Shown one piece after another: positions 24,095 to 34,257 of a stretch of DNA of 51,109 nucleotides (positions are counted from its first letter, which is position 1; the number at the start of each line of letters is the position of its first letter). Position numbers and translations under genes: made by a program. Source of the stretch: Bacteroidota bacterium (GTDB lineage Bacteria; Bacteroidota; Bacteroidia; UBA7662; CANHCV01); contig CANHCV010000011.1 in NCBI GenBank assembly GCA_947459245.1, forward strand, positions 1 to 51,109, in the 5' to 3' direction. The notes below the pieces were generated by a model. It saw only the letters and a list, made by a program, of their open reading frames with translations. It was not told the origin of the DNA and ran no database searches.

Positions 24095-26614
24095 ATGCAG
24101 CAAGATCCAAAAAGTTCATTCGAGGAAAAAGAAGAAAATTCGTTAGACTTTAAGCTATTGCTCAATAAGTTGGTTGGCATTTGGCCGATCATTCTTTTGA
24201 GCTTATTGTTTTCGTTGTTGGTTGGTTTTGTCATCAATCGCTATTCAATTCCCAATTTTTCCATTCGTGGAACGGTTATCATTTCTGATCGTCAGGAAAA
24301 TCAACAAGGTGTTGTTCTGTTGAACCTGAATGGCATGCTTAATTCTGGCGAAGCCATCGAAAACGTTCTCAGTGTTCTTAAATCAAGAAAGGTCACCGAA
24401 AGCACCGTTGAGAAGATAGATTTTGGGATCAAGTATTACACCGTTGGGAAGATCCAGAAGTTTGTGGAAATCTATAAAAACAATCCCGTTAAGGTGGTTT
24501 TTGATTCTACCCATTTGCAAGAATTGAATGGTTCTTTTAAAATAAAGATGGTTGACCAGAGTTCCTATATTTTGGAAAAGGTAACCAATGGGAAATTGTT
24601 TTATCCGGCAACCCAAACCGAAGAAATCAACCGAAAAGTTAAACAAACTGCCTTCAAAGGAAAGAAGTTTAAATTTGGCGAAATCGTTGAAACACCAACC
24701 TTCAAATTCATTGTTCACCGTTCCATTTCATCCGAAGAAACTCCTGAAAATGAAGTTTATTTCATGTCGTTCAGTCGCCAACAATTGGTTACCCAATATT
24801 TGGGCAAGGTTTCTTTTAACAGACCCAACCGAAATGCCAATATTATTGAGGCATCCATGGTGTCGCCCATTCCCGATAAGGATATCATCTTCTTAGAAAC
24901 CCTCTTGCTTACCTTCCAAGATATGAAGTTGAATGAGCAACGCGAAAGCGCCATCAACACCATTCGATTTATCGATGAACAACTTGAAATCATTTCCGAT
25001 TCACTGGGGAAAGTAGAAGGAGGAATGGAGAACTTCCAATCTCAAAACATCTTTTCCGCAACGGCCAATGGCGAGTCGTACATCATGCAGAAATTGGCTG
25101 GGCTCAATGAACAAAAGAGCAAGGAAGTGCTCAAAATGCGTTATCTGGATTATCTGAAAAGCTACCTTCGCAACAAAAAAGAATACACCGATATGGTGTC
25201 GCCTTCCTCGGTGGGAATTGAAGATCCAGTTGTTCTTGAGTTATTGTCTAAAATCATCACAAGTTCCGCAGAATTTCAATTGGTGAAGGAAAGCTTTTCC
25301 CCAAAAACAGCCATTTACCAAGAGAAGTATCAAGTCATCTTGAATTTCAGAAATAGTTTGTTGGATGCTGTGAACGACTATTATTCCAAGTTGAACTTCA
25401 ACATTTCCGACTTAACAAGAGAGATTGGAATTTTAGATCAACAAGTTCGATCCATCCCCAATCAAAACCGCAAACTATCCGATCTTGCCCGTCGATTTGG
25501 GGTGCAAGAAAACATGTACAAATTCTTGTTGGAAAAAAGGATTGAGTACGGAATTACCAAGTTTTCGGCCATTTCTCCTTTCCAAATTTTGGATGCACCT
25601 AAAATTGGCGAAGTTATTTCTCCTAAAAAAGCGTTCAACTACTCCATTTGCTTGATCATCGGGCTATTGTTACCCATTTTATTGCTCATCATCCTCGATT
25701 TTCTGAACAATAAAATCAACAGTGTTGACGAGCTCAATCGGGCAACCTTGATGAAAAACATCGGGGTTATTTCTCACAACAATAAAAATCACCCCCTCGT
25801 TGTTCAGAATTTCCCAAAATCAATGATTTCTGAAACTTTCCGATCCCTTCGTACCAACATCAATTATTTCGTGGGGAAAGAAAGATTCAAAATTCTGATC
25901 ACCTCAAGTATCTCCGGAGAAGGGAAAACGTTCTGTGCAATTAATATTGCCGCCGTTTATGCAATCGCAGGGAAAAAAGTGGTTTTGTTGGGTTTTGATT
26001 TAAGGAAACCAAGGATCAACAACGACTTTGAAATGATTAACGATATTGGTCTGACCAATTATTTAATCAAAGATATTCCCTTGGAAAAGGTCATTAAGAA
26101 AACAGAAATCAATAATCTTGATGTTATTCTTTCCGGCCCTGTTCCACCCAATCCTTCCGAATTGATCATCTCAACCAAAGTGAATGTGATGATGGAAGCG
26201 CTTGAAAAAGAATACGACATCATTGTTATTGATACTCCTCCTGCCGGATTGATCACGGATGCCTTGGATCTCACCAAGTTCGCTGATATCAATTTGTATT
26301 TGGTTCGGCAAACGGTTACAGAAAAGCAGAATTTGATGTTTATCAATAGCCAGATTGAAAAAGGGAATGTCGATAAGATTTTCACCATTTTCAATGACTT
26401 TGATATGCGTAGAACCAATAGTTACGGTTACGGCTACGGTTACGGTTACGGCTACGGATATGGCTACGGTTATGGCTATGGTTATGGCTACGGTTATGGC
26501 TACGGTTATGGCGGTTACGGCTACGGTTACTACGAGGAGGACTACCAAAAGCCAAAATCACTGAAAGAAAAGTTTCTCGGGTTATTTAATATAAAGAATG
26601 GAAACGATGAATAA
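24095..26614 (+). CDS. Polysaccharide co-polymerase / tyrosine autokinase (Wzc-like)
   Basis: An 839-residue inner-membrane protein. A first membrane segment (about 28-50) and a second (about 517-538) bracket a periplasmic co-polymerase region with coiled-coil stretches (about 280-470). The cytoplasmic BY-kinase domain has Walker A SGEGKT (about 605-612), Walker A' FDLRKPR and Walker B IIVIDTPP. The C-terminal tail starting at residue 777 carries 15 consecutive Tyr-Gly units, a break, then YGYGYYEEDY: 20 tyrosines as the probable autophosphorylation cluster. In the family, cycles of tail phosphorylation control chain length and export through the Wza channel. The start codon immediately follows the Wza-like stop. 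Confidence 0.94.
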   Translation: MQQDPKSSFEEKEENSLDFKLLLNKLVGIWPIILLSLLFSLLVGFVINRYSIPNFSIRGTVIISDRQENQQGVVLLNLNGMLNSGEAIENVLSVLKSRKVTESTVEKIDFGIKYYTVGKIQKFVEIYKNNPVKVVFDSTHLQELNGSFKIKMVDQSSYILEKVTNGKLFYPATQTEEINRKVKQTAFKGKKFKFGEIVETPTFKFIVHRSISSEETPENEVYFMSFSRQQLVTQYLGKVSFNRPNRNANIIEASMVSPIPDKDIIFLETLLLTFQDMKLNEQRESAINTIRFIDEQLEIISDSLGKVEGGMENFQSQNIFSATANGESYIMQKLAGLNEQKSKEVLKMRYLDYLKSYLRNKKEYTDMVSPSSVGIEDPVVLELLSKIITSSAEFQLVKESFSPKTAIYQEKYQVILNFRNSLLDAVNDYYSKLNFNISDLTREIGILDQQVRSIPNQNRKLSDLARRFGVQENMYKFLLEKRIEYGITKFSAISPFQILDAPKIGEVISPKKAFNYSICLIIGLLLPILLLIILDFLNNKINSVDELNRATLMKNIGVISHNNKNHPLVVQNFPKSMISETFRSLRTNINYFVGKERFKILITSSISGEGKTFCAINIAAVYAIAGKKVVLLGFDLRKPRINNDFEMINDIGLTNYLIKDIPLEKVIKKTEINNLDVILSGPVPPNPSELIISTKVNVMMEALEKEYDIIVIDTPPAGLITDALDLTKFADINLYLVRQTVTEKQNLMFINSQIEKGNVDKIFTIFNDFDMRRTNSYGYGYGYGYGYGYGYGYGYGYGYGYGYGYGGYGYGYYEEDYQKPKSLKEKFLGLFNIKNGNDE
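26423..26533 (+). repeat. In-frame Tyr-Gly coding microsatellite
   Basis: Fifteen TAY-GGN hexamers run from 26423 to 26512, then one GGT and a further TAC-GGC-TAC-GGT-TAC-TAC. Many pairs form a 12-bp unit (TAC GGT TAT GGC). The array lies in the autokinase tail and changes in unit number would keep the frame. Confidence 0.95.
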
Positions 26615-27860
26615 AAATATTGCTGTTATTGGCTTAGGATATGTAGGCCTACCCTTGGCTGTAGAATTTGGGAAGAAAATGAAAACCATTGGTTTTGATA
26701 TTAATCTTGATCGAATTCATGAACTTAGAAATGGCTATGATCGCACCCTTGAGGTCGAAGAGGCCAATTTGAAAGCGTCTTCTCATTTATCTTTTACCAA
26801 CGAATTGGAACATCTGAAGGAAGCCAATTTCTTCATTGTTACCGTTCCAACTCCCATCGATAAAAACCGCAGACCGGATTTGACGCCATTGAGAAAAGCA
26901 TCTGAAACCGTTGGTAAAGTTTTGAAAAAAGGCGATATCGTGGTTTATGAATCAACCGTTTATCCGGGTTGCACCGAGGAGGATTGTGTGCCTATTCTTG
27001 AAAAAGTAAGCGGTTTGAAATTCAATGTTGATTTCTTTTGTGGATATTCACCTGAGAGAATTAATCCAGGCGATAAGGTACACACCGTAACCAAAATTCG
27101 AAAAATCACGGCGGGTTCAACACCAGAAATTGCAGAAACCGTTGATCAAATTTATTTGTCCATCATCGAAGCCGGTACCTACAAAGCTCCATCCATCAAA
27201 GTGGCTGAAGCGGCAAAAGTGATTGAAAATTGCCAGAGAGATATCAATATCGCATTCGTGAATGAACTTGCTCTCATCTTCGAACGCATGAACATCGATA
27301 CGGTTGAAGTGCTTGAAGCAGCCGGAACCAAATGGAATTTCTTGCCCTTCCGTCCAGGATTGGTAGGCGGACATTGCATTGGCGTAGATCCTTATTACCT
27401 TACCTACAAAGCAGAAGAACTTGGCTATCACCCTGAAGTTATTTTATCGGGTCGCCGAATCAATGATAATATGGGCGCTTGGGTGGCCAACAAAGTCATC
27501 AAACTGCTCATTCACAAAGGCCACACCGTGAACAAAAGCAAAGTTCTCGTGCTTGGAATGACCTTCAAAGAGAATTGCCCCGACATCCGAAATTCAAAAG
27601 TGATTGATATCATTCATGAATTGAAGGAATTTGGAACACAAGTAGAAATTTATGATCCTTGGGCCGATAACGATGAAGTGAAACACGAGTATGGTGTAGA
27701 ATTGGTGAAAACCATTGACGATAAATACGATGCAGTGGTTTTAGCCGTAGCACATGATGAATTCGAAAACATGGATCTTTCTAAAATAGCACACGAATCA
27801 ACCGTGTTATTCGATGTCAAATCCAAACTTTCCAAAGAAATTATCGACGCTCGATTATAA
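26607..27860 (+). CDS. tviB: UDP-N-acetyl-hexosamine 6-dehydrogenase (TviB/WbpA type)
   Basis: A 417-residue NAD-dependent dehydrogenase starting MNKNIAVIG (an ATG 9 bp earlier is possible); it overlaps the end of the autokinase gene by 8 bp. The Rossmann motif is GLGYVGLPLA. The catalytic cysteine is C257 in GLVGGHCIGVDPYYL, the TviB/WecC-like form, unlike the GGSCFPKD form of ugd. Other marks are YESTVYPGCTEE and CGYSPERINPGD. The family oxidises UDP-GlcNAc (TviB, WbpA) or UDP-ManNAc to the uronic acid. The match is closest to the Vi-antigen type, so UDP-GlcNAcA is the likeliest product, to be used by the epimerase downstream or directly. Confidence 0.92.
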   Translation: MNKNIAVIGLGYVGLPLAVEFGKKMKTIGFDINLDRIHELRNGYDRTLEVEEANLKASSHLSFTNELEHLKEANFFIVTVPTPIDKNRRPDLTPLRKASETVGKVLKKGDIVVYESTVYPGCTEEDCVPILEKVSGLKFNVDFFCGYSPERINPGDKVHTVTKIRKITAGSTPEIAETVDQIYLSIIEAGTYKAPSIKVAEAAKVIENCQRDINIAFVNELALIFERMNIDTVEVLEAAGTKWNFLPFRPGLVGGHCIGVDPYYLTYKAEELGYHPEVILSGRRINDNMGAWVANKVIKLLIHKGHTVNKSKVLVLGMTFKENCPDIRNSKVIDIIHELKEFGTQVEIYDPWADNDEVKHEYGVELVKTIDDKYDAVVLAVAHDEFENMDLSKIAHESTVLFDVKSKLSKEIIDARL

Positions 27861-27861
27861 T

Positions 27862-28932
27862 ATGAAGATCTTAATTACAGGAACAGCCGGATTTATCGGG
27901 TTTCATTTGGCTGAAAAATTAATTCATTTGGGACATGAAGTCGTTGGATTGGATAACATCAACGATTACTACGATGTGCAATTGAAATACGACCGTTTGG
28001 CGTTCCATGGAATGAACCCTGAATTGGCTTCCGTATTTCATCAAATTCAAACCAGTAGCATCCATCCGAATTACCAATTCGTTCGAATGAATTTGGAAGA
28101 TAAGGAAGAGATCATGTCGCTTTTTGAACAGCAACGTTTTGATGTGGTTGTTAATTTAGCGGCCCAAGCCGGGGTTCGTTACTCGCTTACCAACCCCGAT
28201 GTTTATGTTTCTTCCAATGTTCAAGGATTCTTAAACATTTTGGAAGCTGCAAGAAAATATCCTGTTAAAAACCTGGTTTATGCGTCTTCCAGCTCGGTTT
28301 ACGGATTAAACAAAAGCATCCCATTTCAAGAAAGCCATTCAACCAGTCATCCCATTTCTTTGTACGCAGCCTCCAAGAAAGCCAATGAAATGATGGCTCA
28401 TACCTATTCCCAATTGTTTGGAATTCCAACCATTGGCTTAAGGTTTTTTACCGTTTACGGACCTTGGGGCCGTCCAGATATGGCCCTTTTCCTATTTACC
28501 AAAGCCATTACCGAAGGGAAAACATTTCAGGTCTTTAACCATGGCGACATGAGCCGTGATTTTACTTATGTTGGAGATATTGTTGAATCCATCAAACGAT
28601 TGATCGATACTCCGGCTAAGCCCGATCCGAATTGGGATCCGAAACATCCGAATCCTGCTCACAGCTCTGCGCCTTATCGCATTTACAATATCGGACATAA
28701 TTCCCCGGTTCAATTGATGGATTATGTTCGAAACATTGAAAAATACTTGGGGATGGAAGCAAAAATAGAATACTTACCTCTTCAAGACGGAGATGTTCCG
28801 AATACTTGGGCCGATGTTTCAGAATTAATCGAAACCATTAACTTTAAACCTCAAGTAAAAATTGAAGAAGGAATTGATCAATTCGTAAAGTGGTACACCG
28901 AATATTACAAAATTGATGTAAAAAAGGCTTAG
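27862..28932 (+). CDS. NAD-dependent epimerase, UDP-glucuronate 4-epimerase-like
   Basis: A 356-residue SDR enzyme starting one base after the tviB stop. It has GTAGFIGFH (about 7-15), NINDYYDVQLKYDRL (the family mark of UDP-GlcA/CapI-type epimerases), LAAQAGVRYSLTNPDVY, the catalytic SSSSVYG and YAASKKANE, and RFFTVYGPWGRPDMA. It should interconvert gluco and galacto configurations of a UDP-uronate. Candidate substrates are UDP-GlcA from Ugd or UDP-GlcNAcA from TviB, in analogy to the TviB-TviC pair; the motif favours the first, the gene order the second. It is the last gene of the operon, followed after 19 bp by the putative rimP promoter. Confidence 0.88.
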   Translation: MKILITGTAGFIGFHLAEKLIHLGHEVVGLDNINDYYDVQLKYDRLAFHGMNPELASVFHQIQTSSIHPNYQFVRMNLEDKEEIMSLFEQQRFDVVVNLAAQAGVRYSLTNPDVYVSSNVQGFLNILEAARKYPVKNLVYASSSSVYGLNKSIPFQESHSTSHPISLYAASKKANEMMAHTYSQLFGIPTIGLRFFTVYGPWGRPDMALFLFTKAITEGKTFQVFNHGDMSRDFTYVGDIVESIKRLIDTPAKPDPNWDPKHPNPAHSSAPYRIYNIGHNSPVQLMDYVRNIEKYLGMEAKIEYLPLQDGDVPNTWADVSELIETINFKPQVKIEEGIDQFVKWYTEYYKIDVKKA

Positions 28933-28951
28933 GATTTTCGCGAAAATTGCT

Positions 28952-28959
28952 TACTTTTG
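28952..28959 (+). promoter_or_regulatory. Putative -7 promoter element of rimP-nusA-infB
   Basis: TACTTTTG matches TAnnTTTG. It lies between the end of the polysaccharide operon and the hairpin preceding rimP, so transcripts from it would include that hairpin near their 5' end. Confidence 0.55.
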
Positions 28960-28974
28960 CATTAGAAAACACGA

Positions 28975-29003
28975 AGAGGGGACCGAATGTCCCCTCTTTT
29001 TTT
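28975..29003 (+). terminator. Terminator-like hairpin immediately upstream of rimP
   Basis: The perfect 8-bp stem AGAGGGGA/TCCCCTCT with a 7-base loop is followed by a T7 tract, ending 3 bp before the rimP ATG at 29007. It may end the polysaccharide operon, or act as an attenuator or translation-blocking structure for rimP-nusA-infB. Confidence 0.85.
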
Positions 29004-29006
29004 CAA

Positions 29007-29474
29007 ATGACCGAATTAAATAACGTTCTAGAATCTTTCATTCAACAACAATTGTTGGAAACCGATCTTTTTTTGGTTCGCTTGGCCATCTCAGCCGATC
29101 AAAAAATTATTCGAATCTTGGTGGATGGCGATCTAGGTATCAACATCGACCAGTGCACCAAGCTCTCGCGAGCCACCGGTGTGTTTCTTGAAGAGAATGA
29201 CCTCATTCAACATGCTTATACCTTGGAAGTTTCGTCTCCAGGCGTGAGTGAACCTCTGGCTTTCGGACGTCAGTACCACAAGCACATCGGAAGAGGCTTG
29301 TGCGTGGTTTTGACCTCCAAAGAAAAAATCAAAGGAACCCTCAAACAGGTTGATGAAGACGGTTTTATTCTGGAAATCACCACCAAAGAAAAGGGGAAAA
29401 AAGCGGTTACAACCGAGCAGAAGTTCCTTTTCCTTGAACCACAAGAAGTAAAAGTAGAAGTATCATTTAAATAA
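29007..29474 (+). CDS. rimP: Ribosome maturation factor RimP
   Basis: A 155-residue protein needed for 30S subunit maturation. Marks: the N-terminal domain with QKIIRILVDGDLGINIDQCTKLSR (split here as family strand plus helix), LEVSSPGVSEPL, and the Sm-like C-terminal domain with FLEPQEVKVEVSF. The start MTELNNVLES at 29007 is preferred; a longer frame from a TTG at 28947 would run through the promoter and hairpin. It heads the conserved rimP-nusA-infB cluster. The upstream hairpin ends only 3 bp before the start codon, leaving little room for a free ribosome-binding region. Confidence 0.95.
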   Translation: MTELNNVLESFIQQQLLETDLFLVRLAISADQKIIRILVDGDLGINIDQCTKLSRATGVFLEENDLIQHAYTLEVSSPGVSEPLAFGRQYHKHIGRGLCVVLTSKEKIKGTLKQVDEDGFILEITTKEKGKKAVTTEQKFLFLEPQEVKVEVSFK

Positions 29475-29481
29475 GATTGCC

Positions 29482-30720
29482 ATGCGTAGCGAAGAATTGA
29501 TTGGCTCGTTTTCGGAATTTAAAGAGTTTAAAATGATGGATCGCGTCACCATGATGCGCATCCTGGAAGAAGTATTCCGTACCATGTTGAAAAAACGTTA
29601 CGGAACCGATGAGAACTTTGACTTAATTGTCAATACCGAAAAAGGAGAAATTGAAATTTGGCGGAATCGTGAAGTTGTTGACGATAACTCCGAGGACATT
29701 TGGGATTTGGATAAGATTCCTTACACGGAAGCCATCAAAATCGACGAGAGCATTGAAATTGGTGAAGAACTCATCGAGGAAGTGAAGATTGAGCATTTCG
29801 GACGTCGTGCTATTTTGGCCGCAAAACAGATCTTAGCTCAGAAAATCATCGAACTTGAAAAAGATAATCTGTACCAGAAATACAAAGACCGCATTGGGGA
29901 AATCATTTCCGGTGAGGTTTATCAGGTATGGAAAAAGGAAATGTTGTTGTTGGACGATGAGGGCAATGAATTGATTCTTCCCAAAACCGAACAAATCCGT
30001 TCCGATTTCTACAAAAAAGGCGAAACCGTTCGCGCGGTCGTGTGGAAAGTAGAAATGCTTAACAACAATCCGCGCGTTATCGTTTCGCGCACCGCTCCCT
30101 CCTTCCTCGGTAAATTGCTCGAATTGGAAGTTCCTGAAATTTTTGACGGGTTGATCGTGATCAAAAATATCGTTCGCGAACCAGGAGAAAGAGCAAAAGT
30201 AGCCGTAGAAAGTTACGACGATCGCATCGATCCCGTTGGTGCTTGCGTGGGAATGAAAGGAAGCCGTATTCACGGAATCGTTCGCGAATTGCGAAACGAA
30301 TCCATCGACGTGATTCCTTTTACCACCAATACCCAATTGTACATCACTCGCGCACTTTCACCCGCTAAAATCTCATCCATTTCCTTGGATGAAAATCAAC
30401 AAAGAGCCGATGTTTACCTCAAACCCGACCAAGTTTCCTTGGCCATCGGTAAAGGTGGACACAACATCAAACTTGCTGCGAAACTAACCGGTTACGAAAT
30501 TGATGTATTCCGTGAAAACGATGGTGGCGACGAGGACATCGATTTGGATGAATTCGCCGATGAAATCGAAGAATGGATCATCGATGAGTTGAAAAATATC
30601 GGTTTGGATACCGCGAAATCCGTTTTGGCCATCGACCCCACCGATATCGTGAAACGTACCGATCTCGAAGAAGAAACCGTAGCCGAAATCTATCGAATTA
30701 TTAAAGCTGAATTCGAATAA
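29482..30720 (+). CDS. nusA: Transcription termination/antitermination factor NusA
   Basis: A 412-residue RNA-polymerase-binding protein that modulates pausing, termination and antitermination. The N-terminal RNAP-binding domain occupies about 1-130 (MMDRVTMMRILEEVFRTML), the S1 domain about 133-200 (GEIISGEVYQVWKKEM), and two KH domains follow, with DPVGACVGMKGSRIHGIVREL (one GxxG loop) and LAIGKGGHNIKLAAKLTG (second). The acidic C-terminal repeats of the longer proteobacterial protein are reduced to a short segment. It lies 7 bp after rimP and 37 bp before infB in the conserved order. Confidence 0.97.
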   Translation: MRSEELIGSFSEFKEFKMMDRVTMMRILEEVFRTMLKKRYGTDENFDLIVNTEKGEIEIWRNREVVDDNSEDIWDLDKIPYTEAIKIDESIEIGEELIEEVKIEHFGRRAILAAKQILAQKIIELEKDNLYQKYKDRIGEIISGEVYQVWKKEMLLLDDEGNELILPKTEQIRSDFYKKGETVRAVVWKVEMLNNNPRVIVSRTAPSFLGKLLELEVPEIFDGLIVIKNIVREPGERAKVAVESYDDRIDPVGACVGMKGSRIHGIVRELRNESIDVIPFTTNTQLYITRALSPAKISSISLDENQQRADVYLKPDQVSLAIGKGGHNIKLAAKLTGYEIDVFRENDGGDEDIDLDEFADEIEEWIIDELKNIGLDTAKSVLAIDPTDIVKRTDLEEETVAEIYRIIKAEFE

Positions 30721-30757: not shown

Positions 30758-33691
30758 ATGTCAGACGAAAATAAAGCGCTCAAGCTCGCAAAAGTCGCCA
30801 AAGAGTTCAACATCTCTTTGTCATCAGTCGTTGAATTTTTGACTGGTAAGGGATATGCGGTTGAGCGCAATCCGAACTTCCCGATTGATAACGATATGTA
30901 CCGTTCGCTCGGAAAAGAGTACGGGAAAGAAAAAGAACTTCGGGAACAAGCCGATAAAATTCAAATCGGCGGGAACCGAAAAGGAGCGAATTCCATCGAT
31001 GATCAAAACGATTCCAAATCCAATGCAGATGCTTCCGATGATTCTGAAGTCATCCTCATTAAAAATTTGAATGAACCGATCAAACGGAAAACCGAAGACG
31101 AAAAAATTGAAGCCAAAGCACCAACGCTTTCTGGTCCTAAAGTTTTAGGAAAAATCGATTTATCGGGCAAAAAGGCAGAAAAAGAGGAGGAAACGCCTGC
31201 AGCAGCTCCTGTTGAAGCAGTAAAACCCGAGCCTGCTCCTGCACCCGTTGCTCCCGTAACTCCGGTTGCTCCGGTTGAAGAAGTAAAACCTGCTCCCGCT
31301 CCCAAAGTGGAGAAAACGGTGGAATCAACGCCCGTACCAGAAGCACCAAAAGTTGAGGCAGCTGCCGTTGAAGCGGTGGCACCACAGGTTGAAACGCCAG
31401 CGCCCGTTGCCAAAGCACCGGAGGTTGTTGATCCCAACGCCGTGGTACGCGCCAAAGCCGATCGACTTACCGGACCGGTGGTCATGGGTAAAATTGACCT
31501 TAGTCAGTTCGCTAAAAAACCCAAACCCGTGATGTCTGCAACGGCAAATGGGCAGGTTACCAACGACGATAAGAAAAAGCGTAAACGGAAAAAAACGGGT
31601 CCGGAAGGAACCGCAACAACTCCTGGAACCACAACTCCTGGAACCCAGAACACGGGAAATCGTCCGTTCACCCCAGGTGGTGGCAATCGCCCGAACTACC
31701 AAGGCGGAAACCGCAACCCGAATTACAAAGGAAACAACAACCGCAATCAACCCGCTGCAGCTCCTGCTCAACCGGTTGAACTAACCGAAAAGCAAATCCA
31801 AGATCAAATTCGTGCCACCATGGCGCGCATGGCTGGCGGAAAATCGAAATTCGATAACCGCGCCAAAATGCGCCGTCAGAAACGCGATGATGCCGCAGAG
31901 GAGTTCCGTCAGGAAATGGAAAATCAGGAAAGAGAAAACAAAATCCTGAAAGTAACCGAATTCCTTACCACCTCCGATTTGGCAAAATTGATGGATGCCT
32001 CTGTTAATGAAGTAATTTCAAAAGTATTCATGCTCGGAATGATGGTGTCCATCAACCAACGCTTGGATGCAGAAACCATTACCATTGTTGCCGAAGAGTT
32101 TGGTTATCAAGTCGAATTCCAATCGGCTGAATCCGATGAGCCGAATTTGGAAGAGGTTGAAATTGAAGAAAATAAAATTACCCGTCCGCCCATTGTTACC
32201 ATCATGGGACACGTTGACCACGGTAAAACCTCGTTGTTGGATTACATCCGTAAAGCCAACGTTATCGCGGGTGAAGCCGGGGGAATTACCCAGCACATCG
32301 GTGCATACGAAGTAACGTTGCCGGATGGACGTGAAATCACGTTCTTGGATACTCCAGGTCACGAAGCGTTCACGGCCATGCGTGCTCGTGGAGCACAAGT
32401 AACCGATATCGTTGTTATCGTTATTTCTGCAGATGATCAGGTTATGCCTCAAACCAAAGAGGCCATCTCCCACGCTCAAGCTGCCGGAGTACCCATCATC
32501 TTTGCTCTAAATAAAATTGATCGCCCCGAAGCAAATTCCGATCGTATCCGTGAGCAGTTGGCTCAATTGGATATCTTGGTGGAAGAGTGGGGTGGAAAAT
32601 ACCAGTGCCAAGAAATTTCAGCTAAAAAAGGATTGAACATTGAGTTGTTGCTCGAAAAGATTCTTTTGGAAGCCGATCTATTGGATTTGAAAGCCGATCC
32701 TGCTATTCGTGCTTCAGGAACCGTGATTGAGGCGATGTTGGATAAAGGTAAAGGGATCATTACCACCGTACTTATTCAAAAAGGAACTTTACGTGTTGGA
32801 GATCCTATTCTCGCCGGTTCTCATTTCGGAAAGGTAAAAGCCCTAATGAACGAACGGGGTTCTCGCATCAAAGAAGCAGGGCCTTCTACCCCGGTTCAAA
32901 TCTTAGGTTTCCCCGCAGCACCTACCGCGGGCGATAAAATCTTTATCCCCGAAACCGAAGCGCAAGGAAAAGAAATTGCTACTCGCCGCAATCAGTTGTT
33001 GCGCGAACAGGGCATGCGTACCAAGAAACACATTACTTTGGATGAAATCGGTCGTCGTTTGGCCATCGGTAACTTCCAAGAATTGAAGTTGATCATCAAG
33101 GCCGACGTGGATGGATCTGCAGAAGCATTGGCCGATTCGCTCGAAAAATTGAGCACCGAGCAAGTACGTGTTAGCGTTATTTACAAAGGTGTTGGTCAAA
33201 TCTCTGAATCCGATGTTCTTTTGGCATCCGCTTCCGATGCAATCATCATTGGTTTCCAAGTTCGTCCCTACCCGCAAGCGCGCAAATTGGCCGAAACCGA
33301 AGAGATCGATATCCGCAATTACTCCATCATTTACGATGCCATCGAAGAGGTGAAGAGCGCCATGGAAGGCATGTTGGCACCAACCTTCGAAGAGAAGATT
33401 GTTTGCAACGTTGAAATCCGTGAAGTTTTCAAAATCACCAAAGTTGGATCGGTTGCAGGCTGTATGGTATTGGATGGAAAAATCCATCGAAATACCAAAA
33501 TCCGCATCGTGCGCGATGGTGTTGTTATCTATTCTGGAGAATTGGATTCTTTGAAACGCTACAAAGACGATGTGAAAGAAGTTGCTTCCGGCTACGAATG
33601 CGGTCTTCAAGTGAAAAACTACAACGATATCAAAGTTGGAGATATTTTAGAAGGTTACGAACGTATTGAAAAAGCGACCAAATTGGCATGA
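30758..33691 (+). CDS. infB: Translation initiation factor IF-2
   Basis: A 977-residue GTPase that brings initiator tRNA to the 30S subunit and promotes subunit joining. The N-terminus has an IF2-N-like helix (about 1-55), then a long Pro/Ala/Glu-rich and Asn/Gly-rich linker (about 110-340), which is long as in Bacteroidota. A second IF2-N segment precedes the G domain: G1 GHVDHGKTS (about 484-492), G3 DTPGHEAF, G4 NKID, G5 SAKKG. Domain II, III and the C-terminal initiator-tRNA-binding domain follow ([16 protein letters not shown]). No motif is missing. Its stop overlaps the ATG of a biotin-carrier gene. Confidence 0.98.
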
Positions 33692-34182: not shown

Positions 34183-34227
34183 TTCCCGCCAAACCCCATT
34201 ACCCTGATTTCCAAAAAAGGTTATAAG

Positions 34228-34257
34228 AGCCCTCCATCGGAGGGTTTTCATTTTTAT
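34228..34257 (+). terminator. Intrinsic terminator after the infB operon
   Basis: The stem CCCTCC/GGAGGG with loop ATC is followed by TTTTCATTTTT. It lies 47 bp after the biotin-carrier stop and before the ABC-F promoter. Confidence 0.88.

Follow-up and report, generated by a model that had tools for sequence, protein, structure and literature searches.

A terminator-like hairpin before rimP-nusA-infB in Bacteroidota, a probable promoter-proximal attenuator of the nusA operon

The closest described system is the rimP-leader of Naville and Gautheret (2010, PMC2965389), presented there as the most ubiquitous attenuator, with rimP first among attenuated genes. Its terminator has the form GGGc(...)gCCC and comes with no antiterminator; control by NusA is hypothesised, NusA being the preferred candidate. 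The main text of that paper names Firmicutes and Gammaproteobacteria, and Bacteroidota are absent from it. Rfam family RF01770 (rimP) represents the gammaproteobacterial form, with a gathering score of 47 bits. In Bacillus subtilis, NusA is autoregulated through NusA-stimulated leader termination (Mondal et al. 2016, as cited in PMC12288461). Within Bacteroidota, a 2021 transcriptome study of Flavobacterium psychrophilum (PMC9723704) reports a 5' element ahead of rimP that is structured and transcribed, has no Rfam match and occurs also in other Flavobacteriaceae genera.

The locus described here lies in the window, the whole stretch of 51,109 nucleotides that was analysed, and has the following features.

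27862-28932, plus strand: upstream gene, NAD-dependent nucleotide-sugar epimerase-like, end of a polysaccharide operon (ORF)
28952-28959, plus strand: -7 promoter element TACTTTTG (TAnnTTTG, Bacteroidota primary sigma type), read from the sequence
28963-28967, plus strand: predicted transcription start region, placed about 4-8 nt downstream of the -7 element
28974-28983, plus strand: hairpin 5' arm, G-rich, AAGAGGGGAC (sequence and fold)
28984-28988, plus strand: hairpin loop CGAAT (sequence and fold)
28989-28998, plus strand: hairpin 3' arm, C-rich, GTCCCCTCTT (sequence, fold and pair counts in relatives)
28997-29003, plus strand: T7 tract, expected transcript release site, read from the sequence
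29007-29474, plus strand: rimP, ribosome maturation factor (ORF; PF02576 match at 29055-29246, E = 8e-18)
29482-30720, plus strand: nusA, the regulated gene and probable regulator (ORF; PF08529 match, E = 3.9e-27)
30758-33691, plus strand: infB, translation initiation factor IF-2 (ORF, named by sequence), completing the order rimP-nusA-infB

The original prediction placed a TAnnTTTG element at 28952-28959, followed by a perfect 8-bp GC-rich stem and a T7 run that ends three bases before the rimP ATG, and all of these coordinates are exact. The stem core, GAGGGGAC/GTCCCCTC, occupies 28976-28983 and 28989-28996. Between TACTTTTG, which ends at 28959, and the start of the stem at 28974 lie 14 nt, and CAA separates T7 from the ATG (29007-29009), so that the distance from stem end to ATG is 8 nt. 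RNA folding of positions 28965-29030 gives -21.7 kcal/mol, compared to -10.1 +/- 2.4 for dinucleotide shuffles (n = 200, none folding as well), a z-score of -4.8. A simple terminator scan reports the hairpin site on the minus strand only; the plus-strand miss probably reflects A-U pairs at the stem base that consume part of the T-run. The pattern GGGGACN{3,8}GTCCCC has a single occurrence in the 2.35-Mb genome. TAnnTTTG, the consensus of the Bacteroidota primary sigma as quoted in PMC7366714, has 21 plus-strand occurrences in the 51-kb window, about one per 2.4 kb, and its placement before the hairpin is therefore unlikely to be due to chance.

Several neighbouring features were recorded. The longest frame of the epimerase-like gene spans 27814-28932, with the likely ATG at 27862, ahead of MKILITGTAGFIG; the gene is not part of the leader element, and relatives carry a different gene there. 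A perfect AT-rich palindrome, ATTTTCGCGAAAAT, lies at 28935-28949, between the end of this gene and the -7 element. Its counterpart in a congener (G002), TTTTCACGAAAA, differs by one base, which makes the palindrome unlikely to be a conserved operator. At 34226-34248, after a gene for a biotin/lipoyl-attachment protein, stands a second good terminator-like hairpin, AGAGCCCTCC ATC GGAGGGTTTT; lying downstream of both infB and that gene, it probably marks the end of the operon. Farther upstream, a tyrosine-kinase-like polysaccharide export protein (24095-26614) has as its C-terminus a long alternating Tyr-Gly run (YGYGYG..., about 26450-26570), which stands in place of a simple tyrosine cluster and whose reverse strand reads as a long hydrophobic ORF.

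For an 801-base query, matches in other families of the order were confined to the promoter-hairpin stretch. RimP or NusA loci were gathered from the order, the phylum and 149 class genomes, with rimP in relatives located by a profile built on the RimP of the window. A strict test required a hairpin of -8 kcal/mol or lower that has a T-rich tail and is followed within 75 nt by an ATG, and scored TAnnTTTG upstream as well; the controls were 132 genes having 60 nt or more of intergenic DNA, taken from twenty 20-kb stretches. The strict hairpin-T-ATG set appears in 107 of 125 distinct class rimP leaders, 106 of which have TAnnTTTG upstream. Hairpin, tail and gap coincide in 4 of the 132 controls, and the full set including the promoter in none. 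Most leaders that failed the strict test still bear a hairpin, missed where the stem absorbs the T-tract, the annotated start lies farther off, a long loop separates the arms, or an unrelated hairpin nearby is more stable. Relatives that keep rimP-nusA had been named as the place where absence of the hairpin would tell against it: by eye about 122 of the 125 class leaders have one, while no clear leader hairpin was found by the same inspection in G239, G270 and G287, and these three genomes count against an attenuator. Their loci (L155, L167 and L168, respectively) are possible attenuator losses.

The orientation of the arms is nearly constant. The 5' arm is G-rich (GGG..CCC) in 103 of the 107 strict class leaders and the reverse, CCC..GGG, occurs in none, whereas ordinary T-tailed hairpins in the control stretches divide into 7 that are G-rich, 9 C-rich and 28 neither. 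A C-G pair closes the loop in 85 of 111 leaders, usually with one A-U pair intervening (GGGGAC..GTCCCC). Outside the class, a promoter-proximal, T-tailed hairpin precedes rimP in nearly all of the phylum-level leaders inspected, with different stem sequences (AAAGTGGGG..CCCCACTTT, AAAGTCCCGC..GCGGGACTTT, TCGCCC..GGGCGA).

The stem is also specific to this operon. Among the 149 class genomes, GAGGGGACN{3,8}GTCCCCTC is present in 40, one copy each, and the reversed stem pattern in only 3. By coordinates, 38 of the 40 copies lie just upstream of nusA; the copy in G268 is elsewhere, and G308 has no NusA match with which its copy could be compared. The GAGGGGAC..GTCCCCTCTTT pattern, as GAGGGGACN{3,8}GTCCCCTCTTT, was scanned over 84,980 bacterial and archaeal species and is found in at least 119 stretches. 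Among the matches listed, 109 of 119 share the strand of rimP and lie no more than 150 nt from it; Flavobacterium johnsoniae, Hymenobacter, Algoriphagus, Pedobacter, Capnocytophaga and Saprospiraceae are represented in this group. The other listed matches comprise one slightly farther from rimP (L205), three Bacteroidota at or near the edges of stored stretches, and six scattered single matches in other phyla with no rimP close by; those away from rimP are contig ends or chance. Covariance model R1, searched against this genome, places the rimP site first (E = 1.1e-7), with the next site at 2.5e-3. Further matches being only weaker, the model does not suggest a strong wider regulon.

One alternative, already named in the original prediction, is that the hairpin only ends the polysaccharide operon, rimP being transcribed from another promoter or by read-through. 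In the window, the gene upstream runs in the same direction and stops about 40 nt short of the stem, with no other strong plus-strand terminator candidate between that gene and rimP. Such a terminator would be tied to the gene upstream, with no promoter intervening, but in 114 of 115 class relatives TAnnTTTG is found in the 40 nt that precede the hairpin (0 to 3 of about 115 in windows farther upstream), in agreement with the earlier placement of the hairpin downstream of a rimP promoter element. A comparison across genomes with differing upstream genes had also been proposed; it finds the hairpin kept before rimP-nusA although, on crude ORF calls, 67 of 117 leaders have a divergent and 50 a co-directional ORF as their nearest upstream neighbour, and the upstream ORFs fall into about 71 sequence families. 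The hairpin instead tracks the downstream operon, even where that is nusA alone. With a promoter upstream and neighbours that are varied or divergent, the operon-end reading fails as a general explanation and is very unlikely as the whole account here, while a second role as terminator of the polysaccharide operon in this particular genome is plausible.

Eight genomes in four families lack a match to PF02576 (RimP_N), and in all of them promoter, hairpin and T-tract stand directly before nusA. Five belong to the class (G237, G317, G256, G269 and G231, from three families), and three to a fourth family in another class (G129, G180 and G216). The leader before nusA reads GAGGGGAACAACTCCCCTCTTTTTT in G237, AAGGGGGATTTGACAAAGTCCCCCTTTTC in G231 and CGGGCAATTGCCCGTTTTTTG in G180. 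The stem of G129 is short, with about 4 bp counted by inspection (GGGCGAATAGCCC), and the automatic search chose another fold; this recalls the remark by Naville and Gautheret that some rimP-leader hairpins are too short for detection. The promoter of G317 is visible in the sequence, outside the region that was searched automatically. Absence of RimP is judged here by one Pfam model in draft genomes, and on that basis the eight genomes suggest repeated loss of rimP in the phylum. The loci (L162, L163, L088, L144, L070 and L309-L311) belong to genomes that are otherwise fairly complete. Since the hairpin is kept before nusA in these genomes, the element would serve nusA and not rimP, and the sequence comparison argues that it follows nusA. 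That the element stays with nusA when other operon genes are lost is a criterion for a NusA-autoregulated attenuator set in this analysis rather than a published definition, and it describes what was found.

Leaders used for strand and fold comparisons were bounded by promoter and start codon, without use of the hairpin. The z-score, from mononucleotide shuffles, is below -2 in 109 of 118 leaders, and in 82 leaders the sense strand has the more stable fold by 1 kcal or more, while in 13 the antisense strand does. MAFFT applied to 60 mixed hairpins misaligned the 5' arm, loop lengths being unequal, and pairs were therefore counted on 23 equal-loop sequences. Double changes appear at four of nine stem pairs, a level that 1 of 500 shuffles reaches; the invariant pairs are four G-C and one A-U. 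These observations bear on a DNA operator, in which a dimeric repressor would bind the palindrome immediately past the promoter. The palindrome is perfect, its sequence is strongly conserved, and it sits at about +10 to +35, as such a site might, but the loop varies from 3 to 12 nt in relatives, which would upset half-site spacing, the T-tail is one-sided, and the preference for sense folding is 82 to 13. We regard an operator as very unlikely.

The 8 nt past the stem core (3'-arm positions 9-16) are 76% T in relatives, compared to 30% T and 36% A in ordinary leaders. The tract tends toward TTTTTT(A/T/G)TT with frequent distal interruption, the conserved 3' side often being TTTTTTATT. In some families it is short and interrupted (CTCTTTCATTT), and there the site could pause more than terminate. 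A structural 5'-end element that stabilises the mRNA or tunes translation of rimP near its start codon, without termination, would agree with the short predicted leaders (median 58 nt) and with the small hairpin-to-ATG gap found here and in many relatives. Yet the T-tract goes with the hairpin rather than with the ATG, the gap spans 4 to 55 nt among class relatives and is longer in rimP-less cases, and the element is kept before nusA despite a different start region, all of which makes this reading highly improbable. The same spread of gaps leaves the proposal that the hairpin hides the rimP start unsupported as a conserved function.

The leader leaves little space for other regulatory parts. 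The distance from predicted transcription start to stem has a median of 16 nt in relatives and is about 10 nt here. In 114 leaders, no CCC able to pair with the G-rich arm lies between predicted start and stem, so there is no plain antiterminator in that segment. An ATG is present in 32 of the 114 segments, close to the expectation from base composition on a rough estimate, and a leader peptide marked by this ATG was dropped as a candidate. A riboswitch or leader-peptide attenuator was likewise rejected, the leader being too short for a sensor domain or leader ORF.

Anatomy, conservation, operon specificity, independence of the upstream gene and persistence before nusA where no rimP is detected are direct observations. 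We consider it likely that the hairpin and T7 form a promoter-proximal transcription attenuator of rimP-nusA-infB, probably one of NusA feedback. From a start some 10 nt ahead of the stem, RNA polymerase would soon reach the G-rich/C-rich hairpin and then the U-tract, where a fraction of polymerases would drop a short RNA of about 36-42 nt while the others continue into rimP-nusA-infB. With no space in the leader for an aptamer, a leader peptide or an antiterminator, the terminating fraction would most likely depend on an elongation factor that acts on polymerase at the hairpin. The likeliest candidate is NusA: when abundant it would favour pausing and release and so lower its own operon, and when scarce it would permit read-through that restores its level. 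Of the autoregulatory attenuator first proposed, the attenuator part is borne out by its place before rimP-nusA with changing neighbours, its place before nusA alone and its lack among controls; termination in vivo at the hairpin, with NusA as the sensor that sets its efficiency in Bacteroidota, is what we infer.

The near-fixed sequence of the stem exceeds the needs of simple termination, and this counts against the attenuator as just outlined. A possible but doubtful extension is that GGGGAC..GTCCCC is a direct, sequence-specific NusA sensor, polymerase-bound NusA recognising the G-rich arm within about 40 nt of the start. If so, this would be a minimal autoregulatory attenuator whose leader is the sensed terminator alone, kept phylum-wide and retained even after loss of rimP. 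The attenuator might instead be set by another factor, such as NusG, RimP, IF-2, Rho, a ribosomal protein or nucleotide levels. The interrupted U-tract is in keeping with this, distal interruptions having been reported in B. subtilis for NusG- as well as NusA-dependent terminators (PMC8060035). The hairpin before nusA where rimP is not found speaks against a RimP sensor, however, and the documented feedback is that of NusA, in E. coli (as reviewed in PMC2965389) and B. subtilis (as described in PMC12288461), so that we judge a different factor unlikely.

NusA feedback, a proposal made for E. coli decades ago, has been shown in B. subtilis, and the present element bears on its breadth and age. 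A phylum-wide, genome-unique leader of promoter, hairpin and U-tract removes most confounding leader parts and makes direct NusA sensing testable in tractable species, for example Flavobacterium johnsoniae, a non-pathogenic laboratory species that has the same leader (L254). Genomes with no detectable rimP that have the hairpin before nusA point to NusA, not RimP, as the target. The motif also marks the nusA operon cleanly and offers a possible seed for a new Rfam family.

Compared with known systems, the element most resembles the general form of the rimP-leader: the 5' UTR of rimP-nusA-infB carries a G-rich/C-rich terminator hairpin followed by a T-stretch, no antiterminator is apparent, the distance to the start codon varies, and control by NusA is proposed. 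The 5' UTR site lies downstream of a promoter, the transcription start being predicted, and has GGG..CCC arms, a U-stretch and no antiterminator or aptamer. It differs in that the stem is GGGGAC..GTCCCC rather than GGGc..gCCC, that the leader is minimal (about 16 nt from predicted start to stem), and that the Bacteroidota element also stands before nusA in genomes with no rimP detected. RF01770 has no match at this locus and is above cut-off in 0 of 7 genomes, giving only scattered sub-threshold matches away from the rimP leader locus; a search of Rfam at gathering and relaxed thresholds returned nothing meaningful. As in the B. subtilis nusA operon, a leader terminator stands upstream of the first gene, with NusA as product and presumed effector, and by analogy the element would be a stripped-down form of the NusA-stimulated leader terminator. 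The B. subtilis leader is about 180 nt (as given in PMC2965389) compared to about 40 nt here, and the case there is proven by NusA depletion where ours is inferential. The F. psychrophilum element shares the phylum, the gene, a transcribed 5' region and the lack of an Rfam match; as presented in PMC9723704 it is only listed, with no mechanism, link to the rimP-leader or NusA, or spread beyond Flavobacteriaceae described. The type of attenuator is thus already known as the rimP-leader, and what appears to be new here is its phylum-wide extent, the near-fixed GGGGAC/GTCCCC stem of the class, the minimal leader and the retention before nusA where no rimP is detected.
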